DNA from: Aphrocallistes beatrix
Lineage: Eukaryota; Porifera; Hexactinellida; Sceptrulophora; Aphrocallistidae
NCBI GenBank assembly: GCA_963281255.1
Contig: OY725492.1
Coordinates: 1,659,696 to 1,723,695, forward strand
Direction: 5' to 3'
DNA: 64,000 bases
Shown: positions 8,618 through 60,985 of the stretch, piece after piece
Layout: each line of letters begins with the position of its first letter
How positions within the stretch are numbered: the stretch's first letter is position 1
Program-made: the position numbers and the translations under genes
Notes under the pieces: generated by a model
Databases searched by the model: none
What the model saw: only the letters and a program-made list of their open reading frames with translations
Told to the model about the DNA's origin: nothing

Positions 8618-8998
8618 CAGGGTTGGCAGGTTTTGTCCACTTGGACAAAACCTAGTGGTTTTAACCAGGTTAAAACCGTCCTGTCCAAAACCTCTTGGGT
8701 GGACAAAACGTTTTGTCCAAGTTTTGTCCAGGTTTTGTCCAGGTTTTGTCCAAGTGTTGTTCGTGTCTTCCATGATAAATCGAAAATAAAATATAGTTAT
8801 AGTAATAAACAGGAGTTAGCAAGAAAATCCATTCATTGTCCTCGCTCTCTTTCCATCCTAAACTGTTTCGTACCCACTGCAATGATTTACAGTTTCCATT
8901 AGGTTTTGTCCAGTTTTGTCCGGTTTTAACCGGTTAAAACCAGGTTTTGTCCACTGCCCTGTCCAAAACCTGTTTTGGACGGACAAAACCCAACCCTG
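8618..8998. mobile_element. Palindrome-array MITE, TTTTGTCC/GGACAAAA units
   Basis: CAGGGTTGG at the left and CCAACCCTG at the right enclose repeated GGTTTTGTCCA blocks in one direction, TGGACAAAACC in the other, and GGTTAAAACC spacers. It interrupts the left tip of the CATAG element just after TATATAAGGC. The duplication is imperfect. Confidence 0.7.
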
Positions 8999-9478
8999 AT
9001 ATTATTATAAGGCCTACCATCTAATGTACCAGGGATGCGGTAGAGGACGGGAAATTAAAATTCTAAGAATGTGTATATTAACCAATTAGGCCATTAAATA
9101 ACTAAGCCATAGTCTGTTTTCCATTATTCCCTACTCTAATAGAGTTAATATTTTATTTTGAACATATTTAATGAATGACTAAGAACAACATGTATCATAT
9201 TACATAATAGAAAGGAATAAAAAAGGTCTTCACAATACTTTTCTGCTTTCTTTCTCCTACTCGCTCACTCTGTACACATTGTGTGAATAGAAAATATGAA
9301 TACGTCCGTTTCAATATTTCAAAATATGAGATTTGATAGCTCGAAACAGACATCACACGAACGGTCCAAAATGATGTTCTAAGGGTCCGTTTCTAGAAAA
9401 GAGGTCAACAAGTAATAATATCTACAAGATTGAATTAAATGGTTAATAATTTCAAAAGTCGGATAACAATAGGGTGCG

Positions 9479-9627
9479 TCGGTTGGGGTCAATTACATTT
9501 GTTCAATTATAATTACGAATCAATTTCAAGGCAAGTAAAATTTTCAATTACAACTACACTTCAATTACAGTGTAATTGTAATTAATTACTAATCACACAA
9601 TTATAATTGTAATTGACCCCAACCTTG
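9479..9627. mobile_element. Palindrome-array MITE, TGTAATTGTAATTA units
   Basis: Ends GGTTGGGGTCAATTACA and its reverse complement. The interior is made of overlapping TAATTGTAATTA palindromes. The matching site at 22688-22826 has a fuller CAGGGTTGGGG tip. Confidence 0.65.
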
Positions 9628-9689
9628 AATTGTGATGCAACTATTTTTGCGCCAGGGTCTTTGCTGTATTGATACAAATGCATTTATAC

Positions 9690-9901
9690 CAGGGTTGCCG
9701 TGGGAATGAAATTCCCATTCCATCCCATCCCCATAGAATTCTTGTGGGAATCCCCATGGGGATTCCCATAGGAATCCTGTGGGAATCCCCATGAGGATTC
9801 CTACAGCAATCCTATGGGAGGACCCTGTGGGAATCTCCTTAGGACCCTGTGTGAATCCCCATAGGAATCCTATGGGGATTCCCATTCCCACGGCAACCCT
9901 G
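9690..9901. mobile_element. Palindrome-array MITE, GGGAATCCCCAT units
   Basis: CAGGGTTGCCGTGGGAATG at the left and its reverse complement at the right flank arrays of ATGGGGATTCCC/GGGAATCCCCAT. Flanks ATTTATAC and ATTTAGAC form an 8-bp duplication with one mismatch, hAT-like. A deleted 96-bp version occupies the same site at 22356-22451. Confidence 0.8.
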
Positions 9902-10079
9902 ATTTAGACCGAAGAACTTCCTTAGATATAATTTTCATGACTTATGAAGAATATTGTTTGGATAGCGCCGGCCATGATCATAGTAAACTATTACTAGATC
10001 GCTTAAGGTAAAGTTAGGTGTTATCTTTCTTGCCTATTGATAGCCGTGTTTTTCTCTGTAAACATGCAATCATATACAT

Positions 10080-10434
10080 CAGTGGCGGGCAACCTTAATC
10101 CTTAAGTGGGCCCCAAATATGTCAGTTCTTGTTACGGTCACACACCATAGCCGTAGCAAGAACTGACTTTAGAACCTATATGGAAGCAATGTTACAACTA
10201 AAATTATACTTATAAAAGCAAAAATAAGTAAAATAAATTGAAACATCCTATAATGATTATAGAATATATATTGATATTCAGCATCAATTCCATTCCAAAA
10301 TTAGGCGGGCCCATTTTGTATTACAATCACAAACACGCGGGCCCCATAATAGAGTGTTTTGGAAGAGTCGCGGACCATTAAATTTAGTCTCGTGGGCCCC
10401 AAATGGCCCGCGGGCCCCAGGTTGCCCACCGCTG
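10080..10434. mobile_element. hAT-like MITE (CAGTGGCGGGCAACCT ends)
   Basis: Left CAGTGGCGGGCAACCT matches right AGGTTGCCCACCGCTG in reverse. The subterminal GTGGGCCCC/GGGGCCCAC blocks are GC-rich. No clean duplication was found. 9995-10080 is unassigned. Confidence 0.65.
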
Positions 10435-10739
10435 GTTTAGCACCTCACCCAGATTGTGAACCCCCTGAGAACATATTAGCATGGATTCGGGGGGTATATA
10501 CAGTGCCGGTTAAAAAGAATTGCTCAAAATCAATGTATACAGTATAGTAAACGTCAAATAGTTTCAACTCACTAGATAGTTTCTTACTTGCGAAATCTTA
10601 TACATATTTGTTTATTTTGCTAAGTAATACCGTAATACAGATATTTCATTCATTATATTTGAATAATTAGCCTTTTTCACTTTTCTACTCTTTATTACAA
10701 TTTATCAGAATTTATCGAATTTTCAATGCCTTCGAAACC

Positions 10740-11070
10740 CCGAATTTCCTTTGAAAATCTGGCAAACCTGATATTGTATCGGAAAACGGCCATACTCAGG
10801 GGGAGGTAGCTAAAATGGTTGGGTGTAGCCAAAAAAGCGTAGGTGAGATCCTAAGGAAACATGGACTGACTTGCTCTGTAAGAGACATCACTATTCTGGG
10901 TAGGCCTCGTGTCACAACCAAAAAGAAAGACAGCTTATTAGTCAGAAAAAGCAAAAAGGATCGATTTAAGACTGCTACTCAGATAAGAACTGAAGTATTA
11001 TCAGAATGTTCGCTAAAAATTTATTCAACAGTCCAAAGAAAGTTACGAGGGGCGAGCTACAGGGGTTTAT
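10740..11070 (+). pseudogene. Tc1-like transposase N-terminal fragment
   Basis: ENGHTQGEVAKMVGCSQKSV through SVRDITILGRPRVTTKKKD and STVQRKLRGASYRGL is the paired helix-turn-helix with GRPR box of Tc1-type transposases. The frame is cut at about 11070 by a truncated MITE and the catalytic domain is absent. 10435-10740 shows nothing recognisable. Confidence 0.8.
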
Positions 11071-11072
11071 CT

Positions 11073-11175
11073 AGGTGCTCGGTCGGCACTTATAGGTGCC
11101 AGCCTGGTATCGTCCTCGGAGCCAAGGTGCTTGCAGTGTGATTCGATTTTGGTCCCGGGTTGCTATCACCCCTGG
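11073..11175. mobile_element. Truncated copy of the CAGGGGTTTATCTAGG MITE
   Basis: Nearly identical to 25905-26020 over about 100 bp (GTTTATCTAGGTGCTCGGTC, GGTCCCGGGTTGCTATCACC). Only the left end is present. Confidence 0.7.
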
Positions 11176-11186
11176 AATTCAGTTTT

Positions 11187-11476
11187 TCCACTTTGACTAT
11201 AATGCCATTTTAGGTGATAGAAGGCTGAAAATTTAATATAATGTGTATTAATATATCTCAAATATGATATAACTATCATCAAAAAATGATCACTCGGTTA
11301 TGACGTCATCATTACTCAGCAAAAACTTTTAGAGTGATATCGATTATAACAGTAAGACAGACCTATTTAGAGATGTTATCTACCATATAATTGATCCATG
11401 TGAGCTTAGGAGCCCAAAGGGCGGTGGACGCAAAGCGTCCGCCAGCCCCGCAGCGCAAGCAAGCGAAGCGCGCTTG
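11187..11476 (+). mobile_element. Helitron, 5'-truncated
   Basis: Contains the family core (TGACGTCATCATTA, GATATCGATTATAACAGTAA) and the full GC-rich 3' module GGACGC...GCGTCC, GCAAGCAAGCGAAGCGCGCTTG, followed by T. Confidence 0.8.
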
Positions 11477-11904
11477 TTATCTATTCGTGCTAGCATTGTG
11501 TATAGAGTAAGCTATCCTAGTATGTATCTCGAATAACATATTATCATAGCCTACTCTATACAAGGCCATACAGTAAACTTGAAATATAATACCAGGGGTG
11601 CAGTAGTAAGTGGGCATTTATAACCAACCACATAGCCTACTACAATAAGGCCTTTTCACTGAACAATTTTCCATGGTACCAGGGATAAGATAAAGTGGAT
11701 TTTCTTACGCACCCATAATATGAATAAATAATTTTTGTTCCAAATCTAATTCATCATTTGTTTGATGCATAACTATATGAAACTAGTCTACGTTCCAATA
11801 AATTATATATAAATGTTATGGCTATTTTCTTTCTCTGCTATATGGTTCCTTTTTACTTTTACGTTGTTTTTCTTGACTGTTAGCTCTCAACTGTTTCTAT
11901 ACAT

Positions 11905-12260
11905 ATAAGGATGCGCCACGCAGCAAAGGGACAATGGGGAGGCGGGATGGACCTACAAGGAAGTATCCGGCAAGCCAATTCCCTAAGAAGGGTCGGTGCT
12001 TTATTTGCGACTCGGACAGGCACTTTATGGCCCAATGCCCGGAACGGCACTGTGCGAAATGTGGCGAAAGAGGACACGAGGTTCGCTATTGCACACATAC
12101 ACGAAGTCGAAGAGGGGTATTTCATCGATGTAATGATGGACACGGGGGCGGATCCTTCGGTGGTGGACAGAGGCACCGTACAAAAGATGAATATCCCTTA
12201 CAGCACAAAGTACAGTCAAGTGTATGGGCTAGGGCGGACAGCGCTTGCGGTCTGTAGTAC
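11905..12260 (+). pseudogene. Gypsy Gag nucleocapsid fragment, two CCHC zinc knuckles
   Basis: In frame with the ATG at 11934 lie two adjacent CX2CX4HX4C knuckles: CFICDSDRHFMAQC and CAKCGERGHEVRYC. This is the nucleocapsid end of a Ty3/Gypsy Gag. The capsid and any upstream LTR are missing. The protease frame lies one frame over and begins to read before this frame ends, as in elements that use frameshifting between Gag and Pol. Confidence 0.8.
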
Positions 12261-12426
12261 GGCCTGCGTGGCGATATATGTGGGGGATGGTCGACCACTA
12301 GAACACGAAATCGAAGTACTCGATACTAACAATAGGGTGGTTATATTGGGGCGAATGTTCCTCGCGTGCTTCAAGAATACTACTTTCGATTGGGAAAACA
12401 TGAGAGTTAGGCTAGGTGGTTGTTAG
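12060..12426 (+). pseudogene. Gypsy aspartic protease fragment
   Basis: The frame contains FIDVMMDTGADPSVVD, the DTGA active-site turn, and later VVILGRMFLACF, matching the ILG flap-partner strand of retropepsins. It ends at a TAG (12424-12426). The same frame reopens directly into the reverse transcriptase, so a single stop separates the two. Confidence 0.85.
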
Positions 12427-13173
12427 AAAACCTCTTTAGCTGCGGCACGCGGGGGATACGCAGCGACTAGAGCAGAAATTATGCAGACTGAGATGGGAAA
12501 GGAGGGAGATAGCTTGGAGGCCAGGTTTGATATAAACCCGAAACTATCACCGCGAGAAGAGACAGCCATACGCAAGGTGCTGTCGAGATGGAAAGACGTT
12601 TTCGCGGAGAACCCGAAGAGCCCGCACGAAATTGGAACCGCGGAACACGTTATTACTCTTCTGGATGAGCGGCCGACCAGAAGCCGGCCGTTTCGTATTT
12701 CTCCGGAAATTGAGGCGGAGGTATCCAAGCAGATAGATGAAATGCTCGAGAATGGGATCATACGTCCCTCTTCTTCCTCTTGGGCGAGTCGAGTGATCTT
12801 AGTGAAGAAAAAGGACGGGACCCATCGATTTGCCGTAGATTACCGGGATCTCAACGATGTGACGAAGCGAGATGCCTATCCGATGCCGGATTCCCGAGAT
12901 GTTTTCGATCGTATGGGAGGGGCAACTGTATTCTCTACACTGAATGGGACATCCGCATACTGGAGCGTGCCTGTGAAGGAAAAGCATAGGGAGTTCACTG
13001 CGTTTGTTTCAACGCGCGGCCAGTTTGAATTCAACCGCATGCCTTTTGGATTGTCAAACTCACAGGCTACCTATCAGCGAGCGGTAGACCAGGCTCTACG
13101 AGGGTGTCCGAATGTACAGGCATTTGTTGATGACACATGTGTCCACTCGCCCAGTTTCGATACGCACCTGTAG
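12427..13173 (+). pseudogene. Gypsy reverse transcriptase fragment, catalytic Asp lost
   Basis: RT motifs in order: IDEMLENGIIRPSSSSWASR, VKKKDGTHRFAVDYRDLND, FSTLNGTSAYWSVPV, FNRMPFGLSNSQATYQRAVD and AFVDDTCVHS. Motif A normally reads LDL/LDLxxGYW; here Asp is Asn (codon AAT), removing one of the three catalytic carboxylates. FVDD keeps the other two. The frame stops at 13171-13173 and homology fades by 13200; RNase H and integrase are absent. GC content is visibly higher than the flanks, suggesting a younger or compositionally distinct source. Confidence 0.85.
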
Positions 13174-15522: not shown

Positions 15523-15534
15523 TGTATATATATA

Positions 15535-17138: not shown

Positions 17139-17209
<71 letters not shown>

Positions 17210-19463: not shown

Positions 19464-19582
19464 TAGTTTGAACTAAATATCTGACAATATAAGCTGAAAT
19501 GATGTTTTATTCAGTTTTAATGGATCATTTTGTATTCGATCCTGTTAGTAAATATAGGTTTCTGAAATAATTATCTTAATTT

Positions 19583-21155: not shown

Positions 21156-21159
21156 TTTC

Positions 21160-21164: not shown

Positions 21165-21407
21165 GCAATTTCTTATTCAAATTACAGTTTTTCTCATTGA
21201 TAAAACCATAGCATTCTATACACTAAGGCAATGGTGCTGATTAATCGACTTGGACTAGGGATTGGTTAGATCAGCCATAGCCTACTGTATATAAGGCCTG
21301 CCATCTACTTGAAAAATCTGGACTAGGGATGCACTAGTGGACGATTATTATAATGAACCACAACTTTTAATGATGATTTTATCACTAGCTTAATCAATGA
21401 GAATACA

Positions 21408-21773
21408 TTATGTGAAGTTGTTTCCCCCATATTCTCTATCACAAATATTTAACCTAGCCTCCATAATCCTTCTCAGCAGCAGATCACTTTCCATTTTAAG
21501 ATGCAAGAACTCAGAGAGAGACATTTGACCGACGTTTCGATTCCCGTTCTCCATCCAAAGGATCCTGTTGAAGGGGATACATACAAAACCAAAAGTGGGG
21601 ACTGGAGCTAAACCATATTGCCTTTCATGGTGTCCTCTTAATTGCTCGTCGATATCTAAAATACACGGACTCTGTTCTCTGGAGTAAAAGGAAGAATATT
21701 GCTTAACAAGGAGACTCCTAGCTTGAAATATGAGATTGAGGAGAAAAAGAAGTACCTTGTCAGGAATTTGCAA
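21408..21773 (-). other. Unrecognised 121-codon open frame in the CATAG element
   Basis: Encodes a hydrophobic start (KVLLFLLNLIFQARSLLVKQ) then a soluble segment with PTFGFVCIPFNRILWMENGN and ESDLLLRRIMEARLNICDRE. The frame starts with ATG and ends in normal stop context. I know no matching family. It may be a captured host exon or part of the parental transposase. Confidence 0.35.
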
Positions 21774-22355
21774 GCTCTAAAAGGTAAGTATATTTGCTTT
21801 CAATTAATACTAGCAAATTGTATTTGTTCCATCTGACAATGGTATCCGAATTATTATATTCTGGCAAATCTTAAAAAACATCTCGGAGGATGTCATAGAC
21901 AGCGAATGGGTCCTATCCCCAAGGGGATGATACTTTGAAAATAATTGTTTAAAATTTGTGGGTTATGTTTCACATGCAGGTCGCTTGGCCATAGCAATAT
22001 CAATATCGATAATTATATATGTATTTCAATGAAGTATTTATTTCAGAAAACACAGGGGGGAGCTCCCCGACCTTCGGCGTCTATGATGTTTTCTCGTTTA
22101 TTCTGAAATAGTCATTTTCGTCTAAAGCAAGAAGGAATAATTTGTATTATTGAAAATTGTTCTACAGAGATCTAATCTGCAAAGTAAAAGTTAATTGTAT
22201 CTCACAGCTTTCAATAAATAAGTGCAACATTTTAGTTCAGTTTAAATTCAGAAGAATATCTAGTAATAGTTTACTATGATCATGGCCGGCGCTATCCAAA
22301 CAATATTCTTCATAAGTCATGAAAATTATATCTAAGGCAGTTCTTCGGTCTAAAT

Positions 22356-22451
22356 CAGGGTTGCCGTGGGAATGGGAATCCCCATGGGGATTCCCACAAG
22401 AATTCTATGGGGATGGGTTGGAATGGGAATTTCATTCCCACGGCAACCCTG
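22356..22451. mobile_element. Deleted copy of the GGGAATCCCCAT palindrome MITE
   Basis: The same tips and same host position as 9690-9901 but only 96 bp. The flanks TCTAAAT and GTATAAAT correspond. Confidence 0.8.
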
Positions 22452-22492
22452 GTATAAATGCATTTGTATTCAATACAGCAAAGACCCTAGCG

Positions 22493-22657
22493 CAGTGGTT
22501 CCCAACCTGGGATCCATGGACCCCTTAGTGGTCCACAGAAGATATCAAGGGGTCCACAGGATTCGAAATTTTGTATTACGGTTAATAGGAGGGGGTCCAC
22601 AGAATATAGGAACATTGATATAGGGGGTCCACAGTCAAAAAAGGTTAAAAATCGCTG
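22493..22657. mobile_element. hAT MITE, CAGTGGTTCCCAACC ends
   Basis: The right end in reverse reads CAGCGATTTTTAACC. Flanks CCCTAGCG and CCCTAGCA form an 8-bp duplication. The sister copy at 9641-9662 has the unfilled site (CCCTGGCG in reverse), so the insertion postdates the split of the two hosts. The interior repeats GGGGTCCACAG. Confidence 0.9.
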
Positions 22658-22687
22658 CCCTAGCACAAAAATAGTTGCATCACAGTT

Positions 22688-22826
22688 CAGGGTTGGGGTC
22701 AATTTCAATTATAATTGTGTAATTAGTAATTAATTACAATTACACTAATTGAAGTGTAGTTGTAATTGAAAATTTACTTACCTTGAAATTGATTCGTGAT
22801 TATAATTGAACAAATGTAATTGACCC
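22688..22826. mobile_element. TGTAATTGTAATTA palindrome MITE, second copy
   Basis: CAGGGTTGGGGTCAATT tip, and internal ATTAGTAATTAATTACAATT palindromes. Same host position as 9479-9627. Confidence 0.65.
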
Positions 22827-23649
22827 TATTGTTGTTACCCGACTTTTGAAATTATTAACCATTTAATTAAATTTTGTAGATATTATTACATGTTGACCTC
22901 TTTTCTAGAAATAGACCCTTGGAACATCATTTTGGACTGTTCGTGTGATGTCTGTTTCGAGCTATCAAATCTCATATTTTGAAATATTGAAACGGACGTA
23001 TTCATATTTTCTATTCACAATGTGTACAGAGAGAGCGAGTAGGAGAAAGAAAGAAAAAAAGAAAGAAGAAAAGTATTGTGAAGATCTTTTTTATTGCCAT
23101 TTTAGCCTTTCTATTATGTAATATGATACATGTTGTTCTTAGTAATTCATTAAATATGTTCAAAATAAAACATTAACTGTATTAGAATAGGGAATAATGG
23201 AAAACAGACTAAGGCGAAGTTATTTAATGGCCTAATTGGTTAATATACACATTCTTAGAATTTTAATTTCCCGTCCTCTACCGCATCCCTGGTACATTAG
23301 ATGTTAGGCCTTATATAGAGTAGGCTATGGATCAGCCAAATTTGATTTCCTAAAAATGGTTCGATTATGCTGATATATAACTTCGTACATTATATACGTA
23401 CTAATCGTTTTCATGAATTCTACATCGATTTACTTCAAAATGGTTTGAGCACTGTAGATAATTTGTGGTTGAACTAATTTAAACCAACCACATTACTTTT
23501 ATACATTAACATACTACTTATTTGTATTGTTTTAAAATCAACCACAGTAATTATATATTTATTTACTACCTTGTTGTCAAGTTCTACAAATCACTGTCTT
23601 TTCATATGCACAAATCAAACTAAATCTGAAACACTCCCTACTGCTCATA

Positions 23650-29348: not shown

Positions 29349-30895
29349 TTATGCGCAGTTTAGTATAATTTTGGTAAATAATAGCAGGGAATGATTGAAA
29401 GTGATGGGTATTAGAGTTAAATTAAGTATATAACAAATACCAGCTAGACATTTAATAATTCTCGATTTCTTACGAGCAAAGGCTTTTATTACATCTCTAA
29501 AATCGATCTCTCTAGCTAGTTCAGACTCAATACTCAATCGAAACTAATCAATCGATCTTGTGACATTGTACTCCCCAGATAATTCTTGATTAGCTTGAGT
29601 TTGCTGAAAGATCTTTCAGCAGATGCCACAGTTGCTGGGATAGTGAGAAAAATTCGAAAAGACACACTGAGATTTGGAACTATATTCTCCAACTTTTAGG
29701 TAAGAATTAGGTTAAGTAATTCAAAAGGATTTAATTTTTTTCTCCAAAGTTACCCGGATTAATGAGCTTTTTCAGATCAACCATTTCAATCCCGAGATCG
29801 TCGCAATTTATGTCTTTCGTGTAAATATCTGCTAAAAAATTGGATTTTTCTATCAGCTCTTCTTCAGTTATGCTCAAATATTTCCACAAGAACGAAAACC
29901 TTGATGATATCTATTTTGCAGCCTCAAATCTATTTTAAAGTCGGCCAATTACACTATCAATTATTACATTGAATACATAGTTATTAAAATGAACTTCTTC
30001 CTCAGTATTTTGTCCAATTTCACTCAGATTTTCTTCATCAAATTTTGATTCATCGAAGAATCGCTTTTTCTTCCTTTGTCTTTCTAACTTAATTTCAATA
30101 CCAAGATTATTTGCTATCTCCTTTGCTTCAGACAATATTCTTTTAAAATCTGAACGTAGATTTTGCAGGTTTTTTATCAGAATTTCAATGTTATTAACTT
30201 CCATATCAACTGTAGCATTCTTGCCTGGATGATTTTGTTACAAGTATCAATAGGCACTAAAATCTTGAACCAGATTGATGACATTATGATGCAACGGAAG
30301 GACGAGACATATTTAATAGCTCCATTCACTTCAGTTCTAGTTTTCGCAGTTAAATTAAGCTCCAAAAGTTATTTAAGTGCCTCTTTAATACCATTTAGGT
30401 TAGCTGCAAAAGGCTTCACACTGCTTATTCTCTCTGACCGCCTAGTCCCAGATTGACTATGTAGGATTTCGTTGTGACAGTGTTTTTGGAGAATTTCTCA
30501 TCTTTTAGGACTGGAACTGAATATAGTATATATAGATTGAATGGTGCCAAATAAAGTAATCGCTTCTAAACAACATTCTGCAGAATCGGTACCGCATAGA
30601 TTCAAAGTGTGACAACCACAAGGTAAACCTTTGTATTTCCCCACCATGTTAGCACCATTATAATATCCCTGTCCTCGGCAATCTGTTAACGGAATTTCAT
30701 TTTCTTTCAAAGTCTTTAAAATCAAACTGGCGACTGCAGATCCGGTTTTTTCACTGCAATCTACAAAAATAAGAAATCTCTCTACTATTTCAATTTGCCC
30801 CTCCCTGATTTGATGTGAGATATCGAATGATGAAAATCGTCTGTTCAACATGAGAAGAATCAGGTGTTGCATCAACCATTATAGGATAATATTTT
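29349..30895 (-). pseudogene. hAT transposase (DUF4371/dimerisation domain), C-terminal two thirds
   Basis: Successive minus-strand frames give KYYPIMVDATPDSSHVEQ, DCRGQGYYNGANMVGKYKGL, CGCHTLNLCGTDSAECC, FSSSPKR, and at the end ATVASAERSFSKLKLIK plus SLSIESELAREIDF, the hAT C-terminal dimerisation motif. Multiple frameshifts and stops are present (for example after RYLTSNQGGAN). Closest in style to ZMYM1-like domesticated hAT proteins; this copy is dead. Confidence 0.8.
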
Positions 30896-35284: not shown

Positions 35285-35365
35285 CAACCGACAATGACGT
35301 CATACTTTCATGATTAGTCGACGTTTTCATGTGAGGCCCGAACTTAGTGGAGCTGTCACTTGAAA
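35285..35365 (-). mobile_element. Helitron core fragment
   Basis: ACAATGACGTCATACTTTCATG to GAACTTAGTGGAGCTG matches the family. 34740-35160 holds no recognised feature. Confidence 0.5.
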
Positions 35366-36168
35366 ATTGGTCCCCGGACCAATTTTCCCATGGAATTTTG
35401 GTCCGGTGGACCTTTTTTTTTCAGGGGAAATCGTTCCTACGACGATTTGCGATTTGCCAGCCAAAAGAACAAGATTCGCAGATCTAATTGCTAGGGCTAT
35501 AATTCCCTTAATCCCAAAACTTATGGGTGAAGATGTTGCCAGTATTCTCGATAATAAACAGAAGTTTATTCTGATTCTTATTCCATTTTCGTCAACTTAG
35601 TTATGTTAGGCCGGGTTTTAGTCTCTGGTTGCCATAAAAACCAAGCAACGTAACAGATTAGAATGCAAGGAGATTTGAGATGAACATTCAGCAAAACAGA
35701 CCCTCGGTTTGCAGAGCTAATGGCGAAAAAACACGAAAAAGTTTCTCATTGACTATCTAATTAGAATTCTAATTATATATACTACATGTTTAGATTATCT
35801 AATTTTCTGATACTATACCTCCTCAATTGGAGGGTTAACTGTGTTAAACAACGGGGTAACGGGTTGGAACCCCTGGTCTAGGCGCATGTAAAGATGATCG
35901 ACCCTTTTTAGGCGTTTGATTTGAAAATTATAAGCATAAAACCAATTTTCAATGAAAAAATTGGTCTCCCTGACCAATATTCCATGAAATAATAGTCTCC
36001 CGGTCCAATATTTCATGAAAAAATAGTCTCCCGGACCAATTTTCCTGAAAGAAATGGTCCCCCGGACCAATATTCTATGGAATATTGGTCCATTGCAGGA
36101 CCAAAATTTTCAGCATAGGACCAATTTTCCATTAAGAAATTGGTCCCCTGGACCATTTTTTTCGCGAA
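35362..36168. mobile_element. Foldback/palindrome array with GGTCCCCCGGACCAAT units
   Basis: Both ends carry TTGGTCC...GGACCAA palindromes. At 35945-36165 they form a tandem array of ~35-bp units (CTCCCGGACCAAT, TTCATGAAA). The middle (35440-35900) is unassigned single-copy sequence. Confidence 0.55.
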
Positions 36169-36261
36169 CAAAATTTTTCGTGACTGAACAATACCCAAAA
36201 TACTCCAACATGCCAAAGATTTAACTTAGTTAACTACAACTTTCTACTCCTAAAACTCAGT

Positions 36262-36865: not shown

Positions 36866-37073
36866 ACTTTTTAACCAACTGACAATGGATTTGAAACATG
36901 CCACCTATCTAGGTACTTCCGTAATATTCATTGAAATAAACGCCAATATATAGTTCCCTAAAATTTGGCGTTGTTCTATGTATATAATCACGAACACTAA
37001 TTAGAACTTCTTCAAGAACTTCAACTGCACATTTTGTTTTGTTTTGTTTGTGTTTTACTGTATGTATTTTGGG

Positions 37074-37512
37074 AGACGGACAATTCGTGACAAGACAGTT
37101 CGTGACAAGACAATTCGTGACAAGACAGTTCGTGACAAGACAATTCGTGACGGACAATTCGTGACAAAATTTGCAATCGGGCCCTTATTCTCAGATCGAC
37201 TTAAACTTAAACTTAACTTAAACTAAGTAAAAACTAAGTATTTACTTAGTTTTATTTGGTATACTTAGTATTTACTTAGTTTCGAGCAAAAAACTAAGTA
37301 TGGATTTAACCATTTAAGTATAAGTATAGCTAAGAAAACTTAATGAAAATTAAGTAATTACTTAGTAAGTTAAGTTTAAGTTAAGTCGATCTGAGAATAA
37401 GGCCCCTGATGTCTAGAAATTTTGTCACGAATTGTCTTGTCACGAAATGTCTTGTCACAAATTGTTCGTCACGAATTGTCTTGTCACAAATTGTCCTGTC
37501 ACGAATTGTCTG
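37074..37512. mobile_element. Foldback with ACAATTCGTGACAAG direct arrays in inverted orientation
   Basis: Six ~16-bp units (ACAATTCGTGACAAG) at 37075-37167 and the reverse-complement array at 37420-37511. Variation between units is low. The loop is occupied by the next element. Confidence 0.75.
37178..37408. mobile_element. Nested foldback with AACTAAGTA/TACTTAGTT units
   Basis: Ends GGGCCCTTATTCTCAGATCG and, reversed, GGGGCCTTATTCTCAGATCG, then GACTTAAACTTAAAC arrays and TACTTAGTTT/AAACTAAGTA palindromes in the middle. Confidence 0.75.
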
Positions 37513-37607
37513 TATTCCATGTATTTTTGTTAAATATATTATAGAATATCACTTTGTGAACAGGCATCCTCTCAAAATAAATTTTATCTATATATCTGTC
37601 TACTATA

Positions 37608-41555: not shown

Positions 41556-41771
41556 TAGAGGTCACAAGTCTCGCAACGAGCCTGAATTCTCGGCCCGACC
41601 CGACAGATTGAGGCCCGACCCCGGCCCGGCTTGATAGACTGAGGCCCGAGCCCGATCAGCCTTCGGGCTCGACCTATAGAAATTACTGATTGCTAGAGTA
41701 GAGGCAACGGGCCTGAATTCTCGGGGCGAGCCAGATCGGGCTTCGGGCTCGGGCAGGGCTTGCAACCTCTA
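41556..41771. mobile_element. GC-rich palindrome-array MITE, GGCCCGA units, 8-bp duplication
   Basis: TAGAGGTCACAAGTC and reversed right end TAGAGGTTGCAAGCC; interior built of CCCGACCCG, CGGGCTTCGGGCTCG. Flanks GTACATGT and CTACATGT (7 of 8). Confidence 0.8.
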
Positions 41772-42016: not shown

Positions 42017-43094
42017 CATAGCCTACTGTATATAAGTCCTCACTCACAGTAACTTGCGGATTTTGGACTAGGAATGGGGTAGAAGATGGTTGAACTAATG
42101 CATGAACTGCCTTAAATCATTAACCAAGCACAATCGAACTTAGGAATGTATTACCAGCATATATAAATATGGTGTCCAAGTATCCATATCCGTTGTCAAA
42201 ATTTAGACTAGTCACCATATGATTCGCAATAGGTTATATTTGGGGAAAATTTAGTGATTTTCAGAGGCTGTTTGAGGGCATTTCTAAGTGTTTTTATTAT
42301 AAACTTTTTAGCATAGAACTGAGCTATGAATGGGTTGATGTGAAAAATTTGGATTTTTTTCATGGAATGTTGCTACATTACAGTGTTGCTATGAAAACGA
42401 TTTTGGTCAGTTGGGGTCATATCTTGAAAACCACAAGAGTTAGACATTAGAATGTATTTCAATTTGATAGCGAATAGAATACTTCCTATTAAGCGATAAT
42501 ATAATTTCGACGTCTAAATTCAATGGTTTATGAGATAAATTACCAAATGTGACCAGTATTATAAATTGACTAATAACTCGTAAACCATTGAATTCAGACA
42601 AATTAATTATATTATCACTTAATAGGAAATAGTCTATTGGCTATCAAATTGAATTGCATTCGAATGTCTAGCTCTTGTGGTTTTCAAAATATGACCCCAA
42701 CTGACCAAAACACGTTTTCATAGCAACACTGTAATGTAGCAACATTCCATGAAAAAAATCCAAATTTTTCGCATCAACCCATTCATAGCTCAGTTCTATG
42801 CTAAAAAGTTTATAATAAAAACACTTAGAAATGCCCTTAAACAGCCTCTGAAAATCAAATTTAAATTTGCCCCAAATATAACCTATTGCGAATCATTTGG
42901 TGACTAGCCTAAATTTTTACAACGGATATGGATACTTGGACATCATATTTATATATGCTAGTAATACATTCCTAAGCTCGAATGTGCTTGGTTAATGATT
43001 TAAGGCAGCTCATGTATTAGTTCAACCATCTTCTACCGCATCCCTAGTCCAAAATCCGCAAGTTACTGTGAGGCCTTATATACAGTAGGCTATG
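42017..43094. mobile_element. Complete palindromic CATAG element, 7-bp duplication
   Basis: CATAGCCTACTGTATATAAG and its complement at the ends; arms of ~500 bp mirror each other about 42560. ATGCTAT repeats exactly (42010-42016, 43095-43101). Non-coding. Confidence 0.92.
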
Positions 43095-44088: not shown

Positions 44089-44273
44089 CAGTCAGGGTCG
44101 CTTATTATGAATCCGCTTAATATGAACATTCGTTTATTATGAACTAACCTCCTGGTCCCAATTTTATATTTTAGATAGGATTTGTATTGAATCAAGTTCG
44201 CTTAATATGAAGTATCTCTATTATGAACATATTTTTTGGTCCCCTGGTGGTTTACAATAAGCGACCCTGACTG
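44089..44273. mobile_element. MITE, second copy of 19280-19463
   Basis: CAGTCAGGGTCGCTTATTAT ends, TA flanks, 185 bp. Confidence 0.88.
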
Positions 44274-44297: not shown

Positions 44298-44671
44298 CAG
44301 GGATGGTGGAAATGCTGTTAACAGCCACTTTGGCTGTTTGCTGTTAACAGCTCACAATTGGCTGTTAACAGCTACAATTTCCAAACAATTAACAGTCTAG
44401 CTCTGTTGTCATTTGAACTTTTAAAGCAATTTTTTTTTGCTGTTAACAGCCCAATTTGAGCTGTTAACAGCCAACAGCCAAATAGTAAATATTTACATAA
44501 CAGTCAAGGTTAAGCTATATGGTTCTATAATAATATCTATATTTTTGAATAAATTTATCTCAAATTTAGATTATAAAAATAGATAGACAGATATAAATTA
44601 AAATTTAGCGATAGCTGTTAACAGCCACAATTTTGCGTTGGCTGTTAACAGCTTAGCTGTTTCCATCCCTG
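44298..44671. mobile_element. Palindrome-array hAT MITE, seven GCTGTTAACAGC copies, exact 8-bp duplication
   Basis: CAGGGATGGTGGAAATGCTG at the left; reversed right end CAGGGATGGAAACAGCTAAG. Seven perfect GCTGTTAACAGC palindromes, five near the left and two near the right. TATATACT repeats exactly at 44290-44297 and 44672-44679. Confidence 0.93.
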
Positions 44672-45790: not shown

Positions 45791-45791
45791 A

Positions 45792-48296: not shown

Positions 48297-48304
48297 ATAT
48301 ATAT

Positions 48305-49068
48305 GTTACAGGGTATCTGTAAAATCAGGGTAATTGTAATTACCCTGATTTTTTTAGGGTAATTGTAATTACCCTGGTTCAATCAGGGTAATTGTAATTA
48401 CCCTGACTTTTTCAGGGTAATTGTAATTACCCTGACTTTTTCAGGGTAATTGTAATTACAGTATAACCTCCATAAGTGGGGGAGCATGGGACGGGATAAA
48501 ACTGGTTTATCCCCCATTCCCCGGTTAAAATTCAATTATAATTTTCTAGATGAGAACATCTAACACCCTATTTGAAACTTGTAGAATTTCAGAAAATACA
48601 TAGTACATAGTACATATAACACACCCATTAATGTACCAGTTGAGTTTTAAAAGTTACACAATTACATTTAGAAAACTCCACTTCCTAATATGGTACTTAG
48701 GTGGTATAATTGTTAACTTATAGTATGGAAGGGGGCGAATTCAGGGGGGGAAATTCAGGGTGGGCAATGTTACCTGTTACAATGCAACTGTCAATTGAGG
48801 AATCCTATTAATAGGACAATTACTCTTAGGTGAGCTAAATTGTGTTTCCCGTACTTGTGTATTACAGGCTGAGCAAATCTGGATGGACATGTGAAAATGC
48901 CCCAAGTTGCGCCTATACAAATGATCCACTATACAATGAGTGGTCACTATAATTAACCTAAAAAAACAAAGTAATTACAATTACCCTGAAAAAAGTCAGG
49001 GTAATTACAATTACCCTGAAAAAGTCAGGGTAATTACAATTACCCTGATTTTACAGATACCCTGTAAC
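48305..49068. mobile_element. Palindrome-array foldback, AGGGTAATT-GT-AATTACCCT units
   Basis: GTTACAGGGTATCTGTAAAA ends. Four full and one cut unit at the left, two full and one cut at the right. The units are 9-bp arms around a 2-base centre, spaced by TGACTTTTTC-like linkers. The cut units border an inserted segment at 48461-48955 whose tip CAGTATAACCTCCATAAG is pogo-like. Confidence 0.85.
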
Positions 49069-49076
49069 ATATATAT

Positions 49077-49986
49077 GTTAGAACAAATTTGCGAAATCAA
49101 CAATTATGCATAATTGGCGACAATTATGCATAATTGTTCATTTTACAACAATTATGCATAATTGTTCATCTAATGTAACAATTATGCATAATTGTTCATT
49201 TTGCGACAATTATGCATAATTGTTCATCTAATGTAACAATTATGCATAATTGTTGTGAAATGAACATTTTTACATAATTGTTTTAAATGTAAGCAACAAT
49301 TATGCATAATTGTCATCCTGACTCGCGCATTCTACCTGTCAGCTATCTGTAGCTACCTTAATGTTAGTAAAGACCTACAGCGTAGCTCCAAGTGTCATAA
49401 TAAGTTTGACTGACCGTCGGAAGAGAAATTTTGGAATTTCATGTGTTAGACTGAGCCTTACTTGGCTCCATACGGTTATGCTTGTTGTGTTATAGTGAAA
49501 TTATAGTTATCTATGTGACAGACTGACTGTGTAGTGTGTAGTGTGTACATATACGTATATATTATACAATGGCTAAAGGCTGAGCTCTGGTCCCGAGGTG
49601 CCCCGGTTTTCGGGGAGTGGACTGTACTACCAATTATTTTTTTGTTCAATAAATTGGTTTTTCTTTGGAACTCAGTAGCACCATTAATAATTATGCATAA
49701 TTGTTGCTTCCATTTTTAACAATTATGTAAAACTGTTCATTTCACAACAATTATGCATAATTGTTGTTTCCATTATTAACAATTATGTAAAACTGTTCAT
49801 TTCACAACAATTGTGCATAATTGTTGCTTACATTTTAAACAATTATTGTAAAACTGTTCATTTCACAACAATTATGCATAATTGTTACATTAGATGAACA
49901 ATTATGCATAATTGTTGTAAAATGAACAATTATGCATAATTGTCGACAATTATGCATAATTGTTGATTTCGCAAATTTGTTCTAAC
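49077..49986. mobile_element. Palindrome-array foldback, about 14 ACAATTATGCATAATTGT units
   Basis: Perfect ~40-bp inverted ends beginning GTTAGAACAAATTTGCGAAA. Perfect 18-bp palindromes are spaced 8-20 bp apart by TCATTTTACA, TCATCTAATGTA and GTGAAATGA linkers, seven on each side; a few carry single substitutions. Confidence 0.9.
49309..49691. other. Candidate solo LTR inside the palindrome foldback
   Basis: The unrepeated centre starts TGTCATCCTGACTC and ends near CAGTAGCACCATTA, with ATAAT on both sides. It contains a GTGTAGTGTGTACATATACG segment, GAGTGGACTGTACTA and TTCAATAAATTG (polyadenylation-like). Bordered by palindromes, so the apparent 5-bp duplication may be trivial. Confidence 0.3.
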
Positions 49987-50031
49987 ATATACACACATAC
50001 ATATAGATTAATCGAGTTTTAATAGTAAGGA

Positions 50032-51311: not shown

Positions 51312-52958
51312 CAGTACACCTCGCTAATCCGAACAGCTCTATGCCAATGACATGCTCATCAACCCTCCAGGGATCCCTGAATTATCCAGGGAAATGAACT
51401 ATGATCCAGGGATCCAGGGATTTTGAGCTTTTAACTAGTCTATAATAATTTCCTTATTGTAATATAGTTCATAGAATTTATTGAGTAATTTTGTTCCTTC
51501 ATAGCCTACTGTACATAAGGCCTCACAGTAACTTGCGGATTTGGGACTAGGGATGCGGTGGAAGACCGTTGAACTAATACATGAGCTGCCTTAAATCATT
51601 TACAAAGCACAATTAGAGTTTAGGAATGTATTACCAGCATATATAAATATCTCAAAGTACCCATATCCGTTGTCAAAATTTTGATTAGTCACCATATGGT
51701 TGCGCAATAGGTTATATTTGTGACAAATTTGTTGATTTTCAGAGGCCGTTTAGGGGCACTTCTAAGTGTTTTTATTATAAAATTTAGTTTATGAGATATT
51801 CGACAAATTATCAAATGTGACCAATCTGATACATTGTCGAATATCTCGTAAACCATTGAATTTAGACGTCGAAATTATATTATCACTTAATAGGAAGTAG
51901 TATATTCGCTATCAAATGGAATTAGATTTGAATGTGTAACTATTGCAGTTTTCAAGATATAACCCCAACTGACCAAAACACGTTTCCATATCAACATTGG
52001 AATGTACCAACATTCCACGAAAAATTTTTTTCGTATTAACTCATTCACATCTCAGTTCTACGTATGTGAAAAATTTTATAATAAACACACTTAGAAGTGC
52101 CCCTAAACGGCCTCAAATCAACAAATTTGTCACAAATATACCCTATTGCGCAACCATATGGTGACTAATCAAAATTTTGACAACGGATATGGGTACTTTG
52201 ACACCATATTTATATATGCTGGTAATACATTCCTAAACTCTATTGTGCTTTGTAAATTATTTAAGGCAGCTCATGTTGAGTCATGTATTAGTTCAACGGT
52301 CTTCCACCGCATCCCTAGTCCCAAATCCGCAAGTTACTGTGAGGCCTTATATACAGTAGGCTATGGTTCCTTATTATATAGCAAGTCTTCAGGGATTCAG
52401 GAAAATTTCCTGGATAACGAATTTTGAAAATTGTTCAAGAATTTTGATCGAGTGATTATTTAACGAGTAAGGTTACATTATATACGATGTACCTTTCCTT
52501 AAATTGTTTACTTGCCCATTTCGAAATCTTTAATTACATATATTTGGCGTTTATTTAATATCCAAGGACTTCCCTGGATCGCCAATTTCGAAATTTAAGT
52601 CTGTTGATTCATGCTTAAAAATATAATAACATCCAGGGATTTCACTCCTAAAATCCTAAAATCAATTTCAAGAGGGGTTGGTAAGTATCACCAATGATCG
52701 AAAAAATCGTTCGGATTAGTGAATTTGTTCTGATTAGTGAAACAACACTAATTCAATGGGGTATTAACTATAATAGATATGAATTGTTAGAATATTAAGG
52801 ATTATATTTTGTTATGATTGCTTTTTTAACGTGGTAAACGTTGATTTAAAGCATAGAGGTGAATAATATTATATTTTGCGTGTTCGGATTGTAAGAATGG
52901 AGTGTTTGGATTAGCGAGGGTTTGGACTAGAGAGGTTCAGATTAGCGAAGGTGTACTG
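51312..52958. mobile_element. pogo-like element, CAGTACACC ends, host of a CATAG element
   Basis: CAGTACACCTCGCTAATCCG and reversed right end CAGTACACCTTCGCTAATCT. Next to the nested element both arms carry TCCAGGGATCCAGGGA palindromes (51365-51425, 52385-52645). Confidence 0.7.
51500..52365. mobile_element. Complete palindromic CATAG element, 7-bp duplication GTTCCTT
   Basis: CATAGCCTACTGTACATAAG to CTTATATACAGTAGGCTATG. GTTCCTT at 51493-51499 and 52366-52372. Long mirror arms around 51815. Confidence 0.92.
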
Positions 52959-56959: not shown

Positions 56960-57289
56960 TTTGACTTGTTCTTAAAGGATATTTTATTCATTTTATTATA
57001 TGTACATATATGTATAAAAATTGGTATTTGAGGTCAAGTACTCCAAGTATATTAAGCGATTTATTAGACTTTTGTATCTGAATGTACTTAATATACTGTG
57101 ATATTGGGTATGCCAACGGCGTATGTGAGATTGAGTTCCGTTTTTCTCCTTTATGAAATTGTATAAGAAGCATGCTAAAAATTGAATCCCGTATTTTCCT
57201 GAATACTCGCCAGCGGTTTCATGCGTACGAAAAATAATTACCTGGGCAATTAACTGGGAAAAACGGTAATCATAATAACGGACTTACCT

Positions 57290-57350
57290 AATTTCAGGAA
57301 CGGAATGGAACCATTCCGGAAATCTTAATACCTAACTTCCGGAACGGTGA
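57290..57350. repeat. Palindromic TTCCGGAA motifs
   Basis: CAGGAACGGAATGGAACCAT, ATTCCGGAAAT, ACTTCCGGAACGGT: a small palindrome-array fragment 330 bp past the DENND3-like stop. 56960-57290 shows no clear polyadenylation signal. Confidence 0.4.
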
Positions 57351-57584
57351 ACATGAACATAAGAGACTTTATCTCACTACCACCCATTGTGTTAGTCATT
57401 TACAGCCAGAGTGTGAGATACTAGCATGCATTGCTAGATACGTAGTAGAGTTTATTACAATGAAGTACAATCATTATCATGCAAATTATCTTCCTCATTA
57501 CTCGGTAATTAGACCACAAGAAGCAGGATGACCCTTTGATTTTAAGTACCCTCTCCACCAAATGGCGGTGACGTGTTCATATAT

Positions 57585-57845
57585 TTAGCTAAGGGAGATG
57601 ATATAACGAACTGGAAATGTGATCAATATCGATGGATCCACAATGGAGTGGCAAAACTTCCCAGAGCTAAATCACTGATAAAAAAATACTATTATATTTA
57701 GAACCATTAACACACCTGAAAGAAGCTCTGATGAATTTAGAAGGCATGCATATGTGCTCTTGGAGTCAGATGATAAACCATCAAATTATTTCTTTCTAGT
57801 ACTAATTTGCTTCCTTGGAGATGAAAAAATTGCATCCGACTTTCC
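57585..57845 (+). pseudogene. Unknown protein fragment, one frameshift
   Basis: YLAKGDDITNWKCDQYRWIH then NGVAKLPRAKSLIKKYYYI and a stop; one frame over, EFRRHAYVLLESDDKPSNYF and LVLICFLGDEKIASDF. The composition (W, C, Y, paired frames) looks like real former coding sequence. I cannot name the family. Confidence 0.4.
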
Positions 57846-58116
57846 CCATGTTAACCAGAATAATCTTGAGAGAAACTACTGCCAGTAGTGTCCTTCCTTA
57901 TGAAGAAAGACATAGAGCAGCTTGCAGCAGCTGATCCACCCAAACTCTACGAGGCAGAAATAGCTGCAATTAGGGGGCCTGCATTAGTTCGAAAGATAGT
58001 TATGCATTAGTTCGATTTTCCGATGTTGGCGTTAGTTCGAAAGTTAGATATGTTCTAGTTTAGTCAGGATTTTCGGAATAGTTCCGGAATTTTGTATTTA
58101 TATTTTCGAAATGACA

Positions 58117-58392
58117 GTTGCGTTGTGTTGCGTTGCGTTGCGTTGCGTTGCGTTGCGTTGCGTTGCGTTGCGTTGCGTTGCGTTGCGTTGCGTTGCGTTG
58201 CGTTGCGTTGCGTTGCGTTGCGTTGCGTTGCGTTGCGTTGCGTTGCGTTGCGTTGCGTTGCGTTGCGTTGCGTTGCGTTGCGTTGCGTTGCGTTGCGTTG
58301 CGTTGCGTTGCGTTGCGTTGCGTTGCGTTGCGTTGCGTTGCGTTGCGTTGCGTTGCGTTGCGTTGCGTTGCGTTGCGTTGCGTTGCGTTGCG
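58117..58392. repeat. (TGCGT)n microsatellite, about 55 units
   Basis: 276 bp of nearly pure pentanucleotide with one GTGTT variant near the start; makes spurious ALRCV and NATQR frames. Just upstream (57980-58060) lie several TTAGTTCGA(A) copies. Confidence 0.97.
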
Positions 58393-58793
58393 CTCCCTCC
58401 CAGATTCAAGTCAGTATATATACTAGTATTTTCTGCACCAAGTAGAAAGTTTGTGCCAAGTTAGAATATTCCTAATTGACGCTGCACTAGTTGGGATTAC
58501 ACATTGTATTTATTTTCAATTTATTTTGAGTTTACTAACATTATCGGGGCTACATACACGTAGAGTACGGGAACAAATGTAATTTGTTAATCAAGAAATA
58601 TTAACAACCAAAGTTAAGTGGCACATGATTATATTTACATGGAAATAATGAAAAAGTTGAAAATTGAAATACGTAAATAACTAATTAAAATAAGATACTA
58701 TAGAGTTTCAATAAATTAGAAACATATATAAACATGATATCAAAATACCTTATCCATTTGCAAAATTAGATTAATCGTCATTTTATTACATAA

Positions 58794-59211
58794 CAAGCGC
58801 GTTTCGCTTGCTTACGCTGCGCGGCTGACGGACACTGTGTGTCCCACTAGGATCACATTGATTAATTAAAAGGTAGATAACATTTCTAAATACGTGTCTT
58901 GCTGTTAATAATCGATATCACTCGAAAAATTTTTGATGCTTAATGATGGCGTCATAATAGAGTGATAAGTCATCATTTTTAATGAGAGGTGTATCATATT
59001 TAAAATATATGAATATACACATTCTATTAAAATTTCAGCCTTCTATCTCCTAAAATGACTGAGTTCTAGTCGAAAAACTAAAATTTCTATAATAAAAATG
59101 GTGACAATAATGTCATAATTCCATGATGAGTCGACATTTTCGTCTCAGGTCATGCCAAAAATCAGGTTTCTGTGTTGGGCAGTTTCTTCAATCAATTCGT
59201 TGCAGATATTT
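58794..59211 (-). mobile_element. Helitron, 5' end cut
   Basis: A|CAAGCGCGTTTCGCTTGCTT through the core to CAATTCGTTGCAGATATT; a pogo-like tip (TACAGTGGAACCTGTATATA) replaces the 5' end at 59213. 58400-58790 unassigned. Confidence 0.8.
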
Positions 59212-59270
59212 ATACAGTGGAACCTGTATATAACGGCCACCCAAGGGACTGAAAAAATTGACCGTTATAC

Positions 59271-60985
59271 TAGGGTTGCAAAATTCCCGGGAATTTTCAA
59301 ATGTGGAAACTTTCCGGGAATTTTGGAAACTTTCCGGGAACATTGGGAATTTTCAAAATGATCAAATTCTACATATAAATAGATAGACTCAAATTGATGA
59401 AGCATGATAATTAAAGAACACATTTGATTGCATTTTAACCTAAGTGACTATTATGGCATACTTTGGTATTGTCTACAAGTACAATCAACATTGCCATAGT
59501 TAAAGTTACTTTACTAAGTCCTCTTCTAAACTATCAGAATCAGATAAATAATCTGCGTTAGATCCATCAGTATCAGAATTGTCACCATCTGTATCAGTGT
59601 ATTCTGCTTCTGCTAAAGCTAGTGTGGTTGTTTTCGAACCAAGTGAATCCTCTTCAAACAGTTCTAAGTTCGATTTGATTGCCACAATTTTCTCCACACG
59701 TTGGTTTGTCAATCGGTTTCTATTCTTAGTGTGCGCACTTCCGAAGACAGACCAATTTCGTTCAGAAGATGCTGACGATGGGGGAATCTGTAACAGTATC
59801 GATGCAACTGGTGCCAGAGCTTCCCCTGAACAAATTCCTTTCCACCATGTAGCAGCTTGTATATGCTTGGCACTGTTCCATATACTTGCACTACGCCAAA
59901 GCCCATCCTTTGCTCGGAATGTTGCGAGGCTAGCCATCACTATACCAGTATCTAGCTTCAAATGCTCAGCAATTGAATTTATAACATCATACTCTTGTCC
60001 AATATCAGCTGGTTTGAGCAACTCCAATTCTTCATCAACAAAATTCGGATCTACAATACAAGCAGCATAGTGAGCAGGCTGAATCATGAATTTTCTTCTG
60101 GCCTTCACAAAGTTTTTAACTTTTATTTCTTCCGCTTTGTTGAGAGGGCTCTCAAGCAAATTCTCATCCATTTTCTTCTCGATGTCATGCAGGACCTTGA
60201 TAGCACGTGAAAGTGTTGTCTTGTCACCTTCAACAATTGCAATGCCGTCAACGATGGGATTCAACAACTTAATAGCCATTGTTATGCTCTGCCAAAATAC
60301 ATCGTTGTCCAGAATCATTGATCTTATGTCAGCATCTAAATCGTTCTCTAGCTCTTCTGTGATTGCCATAGATCGAAGCGAGGCCTTTCCATTAGCCAGA
60401 GACTGGAACATTATGACTACACCACCCCATCTTGTTTTGCTAGGTAATTTCAGTGCATATGATAATTTTGTTTCTTTCTGCTTTGTTATAAACATTGCAT
60501 TCAGAATGTGCTTATGCTTTATGGTCTTTATAAGTTTCTTTGCCTTCTTGATCAGATTGTCTAAAGTTCTCAGTTCACATATATCCCCAAGTAGCAGATT
60601 TAATCCATGAGCAGAACAGCCAATAGTCAGAATGTGAGGATATGTCTTCCGAACTTCTTCCCATGCAGCTTTCATGTTCTTAGCATTATCGGTGATGATT
60701 GCAAACACCTTGGTTGATCCACTTTCCTTGATGACATTCTTAATCTGATCTCCTATATATACTCCGGTATGCTTGTTGGTTTGGGTATCCACGCTCTTCA
60801 GGAAAACTGGCCGTGGTGTAGTGATCAAGAAGTTGATGATGCTCTCATTGCGGATGTTTGACCATCCATCTGAAATTATGCAGAGACAAACTGAATTATC
60901 TGTTGTTTCCTTTGCTTTTTCTTGCACTCTGTTGTATTCAATGGCTATATTTAGGACGAATTGTGAGAGTTTTCTATCTGTTTAA
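59271..60985 (-). mobile_element. hAT element with CCCGGG palindromes, 5'-truncated
   Basis: Its 3' end TAGGGTTGCAAAATTCCCGG has three TTCCCGGGAATTTT-type palindromes within 85 bp, followed inward by the transposase gene. The other end is missing. Confidence 0.75.
59506..60984 (-). pseudogene. hAT transposase (DUF659 and hAT C-terminal dimerisation domain), N-terminus missing
   Basis: One uninterrupted frame of ~490 codons with no ATG at the proper start. CLCIISDGWSNIRNESIINF is the first catalytic Asp region of DUF659, FAIITDNAKNMKAAWEEV the second Asp, GCSAHGLNLLLGDI the CxxH motif, and PVASILLQIPPSSASSERNW the C-terminal dimerisation motif with RLTNQRVEKIVAIKSNL. The acidic tail ends EEDLVK. 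The BED finger and about 150 residues are absent; a stop lies just upstream at ~60986. Strikingly undamaged otherwise, suggesting recent truncation or a selected fragment. Confidence 0.85.

Follow-up and report, generated by a model that had tools for sequence, protein, structure and literature searches.

A 64,000-nucleotide stretch of the genome of the hexactinellid sponge Aphrocallistes beatrix (contig OY725492.1, C6:1659696-1723695; hereafter the window, meaning the whole stretch) carries a series of transposable elements whose matching ends enclose arrays of short repeats. Their ends, their flanking duplications and their transposase-bearing relatives make it likely that those tipped with CAGGG, TAGGG or TAGAG are hAT transposons, along with miniature inverted-repeat transposable elements (MITEs) derived from them by deletion, and that the arrays act as family-specific binding sites for the transposase. 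The tips, the duplications, the arrays at transposase-bearing ends, the different motifs behind one and the same tip and the change of copy number within a single insertion are all directly seen. An original prediction for twelve sites in the window had taken every element to be built on its own short palindrome and had proposed these palindromes as transposase-recognition sites; this idea is supported for the hAT subset, where the arrays stand at the ends of transposase-bearing copies, but not for all twelve.

The genome searched comprised 100.5 Mb in 28 contigs. Loci with hAT transposase genes were the best 30 of at least 150 scored matches to the dimerization domain (PF05699; 672 candidates), each taken as a 3.2-kb locus, and the 3′ side was inspected at 27 of these 30 and in the copies of one element, hatA. 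Motif classes beside transposase genes were called by eye. Twenty-two 3′ tips, also picked by eye, were scored over 150 bp inward by ranking their repeated 6-mers against their own locus and against Markov copies; the eight unscored loci are hatA duplicates (L018, L019, and L034), a locus with an array and no recognized tip (L013), a member of the L037 family (L033), and three others without a recognized tip (L028, L035, and L038). Copies of the MITE families were located by DNA search, and the flanks were inspected for part of them.

Terminal arrays in copies with a transposase

End arrays are present in five copies with hAT domains, each bounded by an 8-bp duplication, though in one of them the array is weak (Table 1). 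In three of these, L009, L010, and L012, repetitiveness at both ends exceeds that of every interior window, and the 3′ end of a fourth, the relative on C16 of the element at 59271, likewise lies above its interior windows. For 18 of the 22 scored tips, the last 150 bp rank within the top 5% of the locus for repetitiveness, and a Markov p of ≤0.05 is also reached at 18, partly at tips other than those in the first set. For L025, L027, L029, and L030, a search of about 2.2 kb of additional sequence each did not reveal the 5′ end. On the protein side, seven pieces were compared with Pfam: four gave a match to the dimerization domain, and BED was matched by the N-terminal pieces from L009 and L012, but neither by hatA nor by the two transposase pieces of the window.

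Of the two window pieces, the 491-aa frame within the truncated copy at 59271 matches PF04937 and PF05699, and the frame at the right edge of the window, for which Pfam yields no match, corresponds by eye to a portion of the C16 copy's 281-aa frame. The end at 59271 (230 bp) is common to the full C16 copy at 88%. The 20 loci fetched for this family represent 18 distinct tips: an 8-bp duplication is present at all eight distinct loci with both tips (TAGGGTTG and CAACCCTA), perfect at six and with one mismatch at two, and the other ten lack a second tip within range. MITEs of the 59271 family share at least 53 end bases with transposase-bearing copies, and of the matching of MITEs to autonomous copies that the original prediction envisaged, this shared end with two transposase-bearing copies, the window's and the one on C16, is the instance seen here; three further families are considered below. 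A second hAT dimerization domain, with one internal stop, occurs in the window at 29546-29746 on the minus strand (C6:1689241-1689441).

Different motifs behind a near-identical tip

Eleven motif classes were distinguished beside transposase genes, each a different short repeat just inside the conserved tip. The most widespread, AAGTACTT, is the motif at six loci (at one of them as a single copy), followed by TGGGTCA/TGACCCA at five and GCGGGCC at three; AATTATAATT, AAATACA, ACCGGGTCA, CCGGATATCCGG, CCCCGGCC, TAGCAAGTA, and GATTTTGATTT are each seen at a single locus or family, and TTCCCGGGAA at 59271 constitutes the eleventh class. Genome-wide, CAGGGTTG occurs 1707+1743 times, versus 877+900 for its reversed control.

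The tip itself is far more uniform. Mean pairwise identity among 15 tips, compared without gaps, is 0.79 over positions 1-4 and 0.70 over positions 5-8, and then drops to 0.26-0.31. At their 3′ tips, L009 and L012 agree at 15 of 15 terminal bases, with L027 at 14 of 15, beyond which identity falls to 0.47-0.53 and then to 0.17-0.30. The proteins of L009 and L012 are 47% identical over 235 residues in their aligned C-terminal parts; these elements have a 15-bp tip in common and a different motif. C-terminal identity to L027 is 40% for L009 and 48% for L012. At the same time, the six AAGTACTT loci keep their motif across 53-94% protein identity, and L013 and hatA keep theirs at 69%.

We propose that a hAT transposase cuts at the short tip of about 8 bp that is common to the families, and that it might select its own elements by means of the array of family-specific subterminal repeats, each of which would be a site for the BED zinc finger at the N terminus. 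Inverted copies of a motif would be bound by paired fingers, which could account for the palindromic form of several motifs or their occurrence in both orientations. After insertion, the number of repeats is likely to drift through local duplication; the motif would shift when a transposase lineage changes its specificity, the tip staying as it is, with motif and BED finger presumably changing together. The listed elements that are not of hAT type are separate families with look-alike arrays. One possible, still rather doubtful extension is a modular code, in which a constant cleavage tip is combined with an exchangeable array motif and a change in BED specificity founds a family that no longer cross-mobilizes the old MITEs. 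If so, the window would hold the remnants of several motif switches.

hAT-type elements of the window

Short terminal inverted repeats of the CAGGG type are found at 8618, 9690, 41556, 44298, and 59271, with the variants TAGAG at 41556 and TAGGG at 59271. The 8-bp duplications of the original prediction are of hAT type at these same five sites, whereas 4-bp GNNC duplications, 9-bp duplications and TA runs are seen elsewhere. The array at 8618 consists of a directional 11-bp unit used in both orientations. Perfect 8-bp duplications that differ between copies flank six of the eight fetched members of this family and both of two longer ones (8/10); the window copy is without a duplication (flanks ATATAAGG/ATATTATT). 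Exact matches to the 8618 tip number 274 in the genome (142+132), against 0 for the reversed-pattern control. The window copy at 44298 has a perfect 8-bp duplication, with TATATACT on either side, and among the 12 fetched members of its family, eight show perfect duplications that differ from one another, one shows two mismatches, one has none, and two lack a recognized tip pair. At 41556, judged on the window copy alone, the duplication matches at seven of eight bases (GTACATGT/CTACATGT).

The element at 9690 has a different history. Both tips are present in 18 of the 20 fetched copies (window copy included), and all 18 have the same flanks, with 0-2 mismatches, because the element sits within a larger repeat of about 930 bp and is copied along with it. 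Its 8-bp duplication is the record of one old insertion; independent mobility, which we considered, was not seen among the fetched copies, given the common flanks of the ~930-bp repeat. A second window copy of this larger repeat lies at 22191-23235. The other passenger of the repeat, at 9479, has ends that by eye resemble the end of the hAT class L012 (CAGGGTTGGGTTCAATTATA); a target-site duplication was looked for and none was seen.

Evidence against the proposal and alternative explanations

Several results weigh against the proposal that the arrays are hAT transposase binding sites. The array counts at the 22 tips are biased toward arrays, since the tips were picked by eye. The top-5% ranking misses L010 (0.34), L036 (0.16), L032 (0.56), and L024 (0.054), and the Markov comparison misses L020 (hatA, 0.115), L024 (0.09), L036 (0.205), and L032 (0.735). 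The hatA ends rank at 6-8% within their own locus on account of an internal repeat, the 3′ end of the C16 copy has a Markov value of 0.105, and its 5′ end is ordinary relative to the interior (0.21). The original prediction expected arrays in the transposase-bearing copies, and the five duplication-bounded copies agree with this, but L032 combines a transposase domain with a hAT-like tip and has no array. Exact palindromes of at least 8 bp reach a Markov p of ≤0.05 at only 7 of the 22 tips: those of L012, of L032 (despite its lack of an array) and of all but one of the six AAGTACTT loci; hence, the arrays are motif repeats first and palindromic in some families only. Hairpin clusters occur in 8 of the 30 hAT loci, at a density no higher than that of the window.

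When the listed coordinates of 8618, 9690, and 44298 were compared by eye with the 150 scored PF05699 matches (of 672 candidates), none of the three families yielded an autonomous partner. Some copies of these families lie within a few kb of hAT domains (for example, C3:4322624, C11:1427892, C14:1051624, and C15:2203389), and none was seen enclosing one. A candidate autonomous 8618 copy was rejected: the longest tip pair among the first 100 of the 274 matches (L148, 2058 bp) encloses a mariner-like gene (406-1488; PF01359, PF17906) nested in an 8618-family element, not a hAT gene.

The relation between motif and protein is also less tidy than a simple correspondence would have it. One motif is common to L022 and L030 (45% protein identity), and the motifs of L012 and L024 (a AAGTACTT locus) differ at 56%; with such overlapping ranges, the motif is not set by protein distance alone. 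The BED fingers of L009 and L012 are identical at 19 of 43 positions (44%) versus 136 of 297 (46%) in the C-terminal fragment, so that in the one pair tested the finger gives no sign of diverging faster than the rest. The original prediction had spoken of palindromes diversifying fast, in co-evolution with different hAT enzymes; a constant tip with a variable motif fits diversification as such, but the co-evolution is not borne out by this single comparison.

The alternative that survives best, although we deem it improbable, is that the arrays play no part in transposition and arose incidentally, through replication slippage and unequal exchange in MITE DNA that is prone to fold back. Repeat number does change after insertion in a slippage-like manner: the 9690 element is 177-461 bp long among the 18 copies of its single insertion, one 8618 copy (C14:3174578-3175766) has 18 listed, partly overlapping matches to one 51-bp block, copies of 44298 with both tips (10 in number) have 4-17 motifs, and L091 has five successive spacers of 9 bases each. 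However, the window copy of 44298 combines identical units with spacers barely more alike than shuffled ones (0.42 versus 0.36, 10 pairs), and is thus unlike a product of plain tandem slippage; the spacers of 49076 resemble one another more closely (0.60 versus 0.50 shuffled). The persistence of one motif over the protein divergence of the six AAGTACTT loci also argues against this alternative. Slippage alone with no link to element ends, which the original prediction had named among the findings that would refute it, agrees with the copy-number changes but not with the location of the arrays at transposase-bearing ends.

Less probable still is a role of the arrays as promoter, nucleosome-excluding or silencing-evasion DNA instead of transposase sites: several arrays are AT-rich, but nothing measured favors such a role, and the arrays are retained in short copies that lack a transposase and adjoin both the 5′ and the 3′ tip in L009 and L012. 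That all twelve elements represent one hAT-driven architecture can practically be dismissed, for although most have matching inverted ends and several start with CAGGG, the insertions at 4910, 37071, 48304, and 49076 are contradictory in their duplication types.

Look-alike arrays in other transposons

The twelve sites of the original prediction are thus mostly real repeated elements but, by duplication type, belong to several kinds of transposon, at least the four just named being non-hAT. At 4910, six of the seven copies inspected have a 4-bp GNNC duplication instead of the 8-bp hAT type (family of at least 40 places scored, the window's included, from 104 candidates). At 37071, the 8-bp type is likewise replaced, by a 9-bp duplication in three of four copies, which fits that of Mutator-like elements (MULEs). 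The inner element at 37179-37403 is nested in the 37071 element in all three other fetched copies and is also found outside it; its four copies show no consistent duplication. The elements at 48304 and 49076 have TGTTA..TAACA ends and an AT run of at least 5 bases beside the tip in nine of ten left flanks (the tenth being (AG)n with one AT) and nine of nine right flanks, and no 8-bp direct repeat is distinguishable from this run. The left array of the repeat at 35362 is absent by eye in three fetched copies, but correctly ordered matches to it lie at C1:11462949 and C13:3157326.

The claim that each element is built on its own palindrome fails for most of them. Exact palindromes of at least 8 bp (at 59271, in the first 150 bp only) exceed the Markov expectation at 3 of the 12 sites, 44298, 48305, and 49077; 9479 is borderline (p=0.05), the other eight are within expectation, and 4910 and 41556 have zero. 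Clusters of hairpins with a shared stem number 7 in the window, versus 0,0,1,0,0,0,0,0 in eight Markov controls, and five of the 7 are at listed sites (9690, 35362, 44298, 48305, and 49077). The theme common to the listed elements is one of short repeats within matching ends, rather than a palindrome of their own. Since hAT-type and non-hAT elements alike have them, such arrays arise in unrelated transposons, where look-alikes are indeed present. The hAT reading accounts for the odd repeat-filled MITEs and, at the same time, warns that a similar array may belong to an unrelated transposon.

Further observations

Repeats with CATAGCCTACTGTATATAAG-like ends occur at 21276-23329, 42017-43094, and 51500-52365, with 7-bp duplications of their own (GATCAGC, ATGCTAT, and GTTCCTT, respectively). 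An inverted element (CAGTCAGGGTCGCTTATTATG..) flanked by TA at 44092-44273 is pogo/Tc1-like in appearance. Microsatellites include a perfect (TGTA)89 at 7249-7605 and a near-perfect (GTTGC)55 at 58117-58392. At L039, a further element (CATAGGCGTCGTAA..) at 9037-9347 (69341-69651 on the scale of the window) has a palindromic ACCGGGTAGTACCCGGT array, and at L028 (2709-3226) a dense TGTTATAACA/ATCACGTGAT palindrome array with 19 copies of the 10-mer lies 1 kb from a hAT domain.

Table 1. Elements and genes of the window, by position, followed by the duplication-bounded hAT copies found elsewhere, with their lengths
Feature	Position or length	Strand	Ends, arrays and other attributes
Non-hAT MITE	4910..5354	.	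Ends TGTTGCATG..CATGCAACA
hAT-type MITE	8618..8998	.	Tips CAGGGTTGG..CCAACCCTG; GGTTTTGTCCA array, both orientations
Larger ~930-bp repeat	9086..9999	.	Elements at 9479 and 9690 as passengers; provides the shared flanks of 9690 copies
AT-rich inverted element	9479..9627	.	Ends GGTTGGGGTCAATTAC..GTAATTGACCCCAACC; inside the ~930-bp repeat
hAT-type nested element	9690..9901	.	Ends CAGGGTTGCCG..CGGCAACCCTG; array GGGATTCCC/GGGAATCCC; duplication ATTTATAC/ATTTAGAC
Second, shorter 9690 copy	22356..22451	.	Within another copy of the ~930-bp repeat
Repeat, ends provisional	35362..36172	.	Arrays ATTGGTCC/GGACCAAT
Element, MULE-like by duplication length alone	37071..37518	.	Arrays of 15-bp tandem repeat GACAATTCGTGACAA
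Inner element	37179..37403	.	Begins GGGGCCTTATTCTCAGATCGA..; contains AACTAAGTATTTACTTAGTT
hAT-like element	41556..41771	.	Ends TAGAGGTC..TGCAACCTCTA; GGCCCGA-rich array
hAT-type MITE	44298..44671	.	Ends CAGGGATGG..CCATCCCTG; seven GCTGTTAACAGC
TA-run-inserted element	48304..49069	.	Ends TGTTACAGGG..CCCTGTAACA; array of a 24-bp near-palindrome
TA-run-inserted element	49076..49987	.	Ends TGTTAGAACA..TGTTCTAACA; ACAATTATGCATAATTGT array
Truncated transposase-bearing hAT copy	59271..60981	-	Tip TAGGGTTGCAAAATTCCCGGGAA; TTTCCGGGAA array
491-aa open frame of a hAT transposase	59506..60981	-	PF04937 8.7e-29; PF05699 7.8e-9
N-terminal part, second copy of the 59271 transposase family	63583..64000	+	Runs off the window
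L009	2384 bp		8-bp duplication AGAGATAT; hAT domain
L012	2575 bp		8-bp duplication with one mismatch; hAT domain
hatA	4530 bp		8-bp duplication GGCTATGA; 717-aa open frame
C16 relative of 59271	2785 bp		8-bp duplication TACGTATT; transposase in two frames
L010	589 bp		8-bp duplication CTTCCTTG; hAT domain

Comparison with known systems

The original prediction knew of no general description of such arrays. This was overstated, as PMC10368747 credits most hAT transposons with subterminal repeats near their tips. Such repeats are thus already known as a kind; what appears to be new is the presence of many motif classes in one genome behind a near-identical tip. For such a series we found no description in a literature search that left subscription papers mostly outside. 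Subterminal repeats have been known from single hAT elements and the evolution of their specificity much less so; the approximately eleven motif classes found here, several behind a near-identical tip, offer matched pairs in which BED residues and DNA motif could be compared or swapped, and such variety within a single genome could shed light on how docking codes change.

The TA-run insertions at 48304 and 49076 recall MuTAnT (Mutator-like MITEs that target TA microsatellites; PMC4486113) and Micron, mentioned in the same paper, but their tips are different. In maize, the AAACGG subterminal repeats of Ac are bound cooperatively according to PMC3260210, where autonomous and non-autonomous copies (Ac/Ds), as in the sponge, share their tips and, often, the subterminal hexamers. 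Ac/Ds, however, has a single motif, whereas here a series of motifs lies behind one tip.

A close parallel is offered by Hermes and Tol2. In PMC10368747, the BED domains of Hermes cooperatively bind a quasi-palindromic pair of subterminal repeats, and AAGTACTT, the motif of six loci here, lies directly beside the tip of Tol2. Like Hermes, whose motif is quasi-palindromic, and Tol2, the sponge elements repeat a short motif close to the tip; they differ in that eleven motif classes, discerned by eye, lie beside transposase genes in one genome. Finally, PMC8097297 deals with CGG-binding proteins derived from hAT elements and reports that hAT DNA-binding domains bind differing 8-mers, all four motif-yielding hAT proteins matching subterminal regions of their own element. 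In that study, proteins were measured across species; in A. beatrix, it is the DNA side of the pairing that is seen, within one genome.

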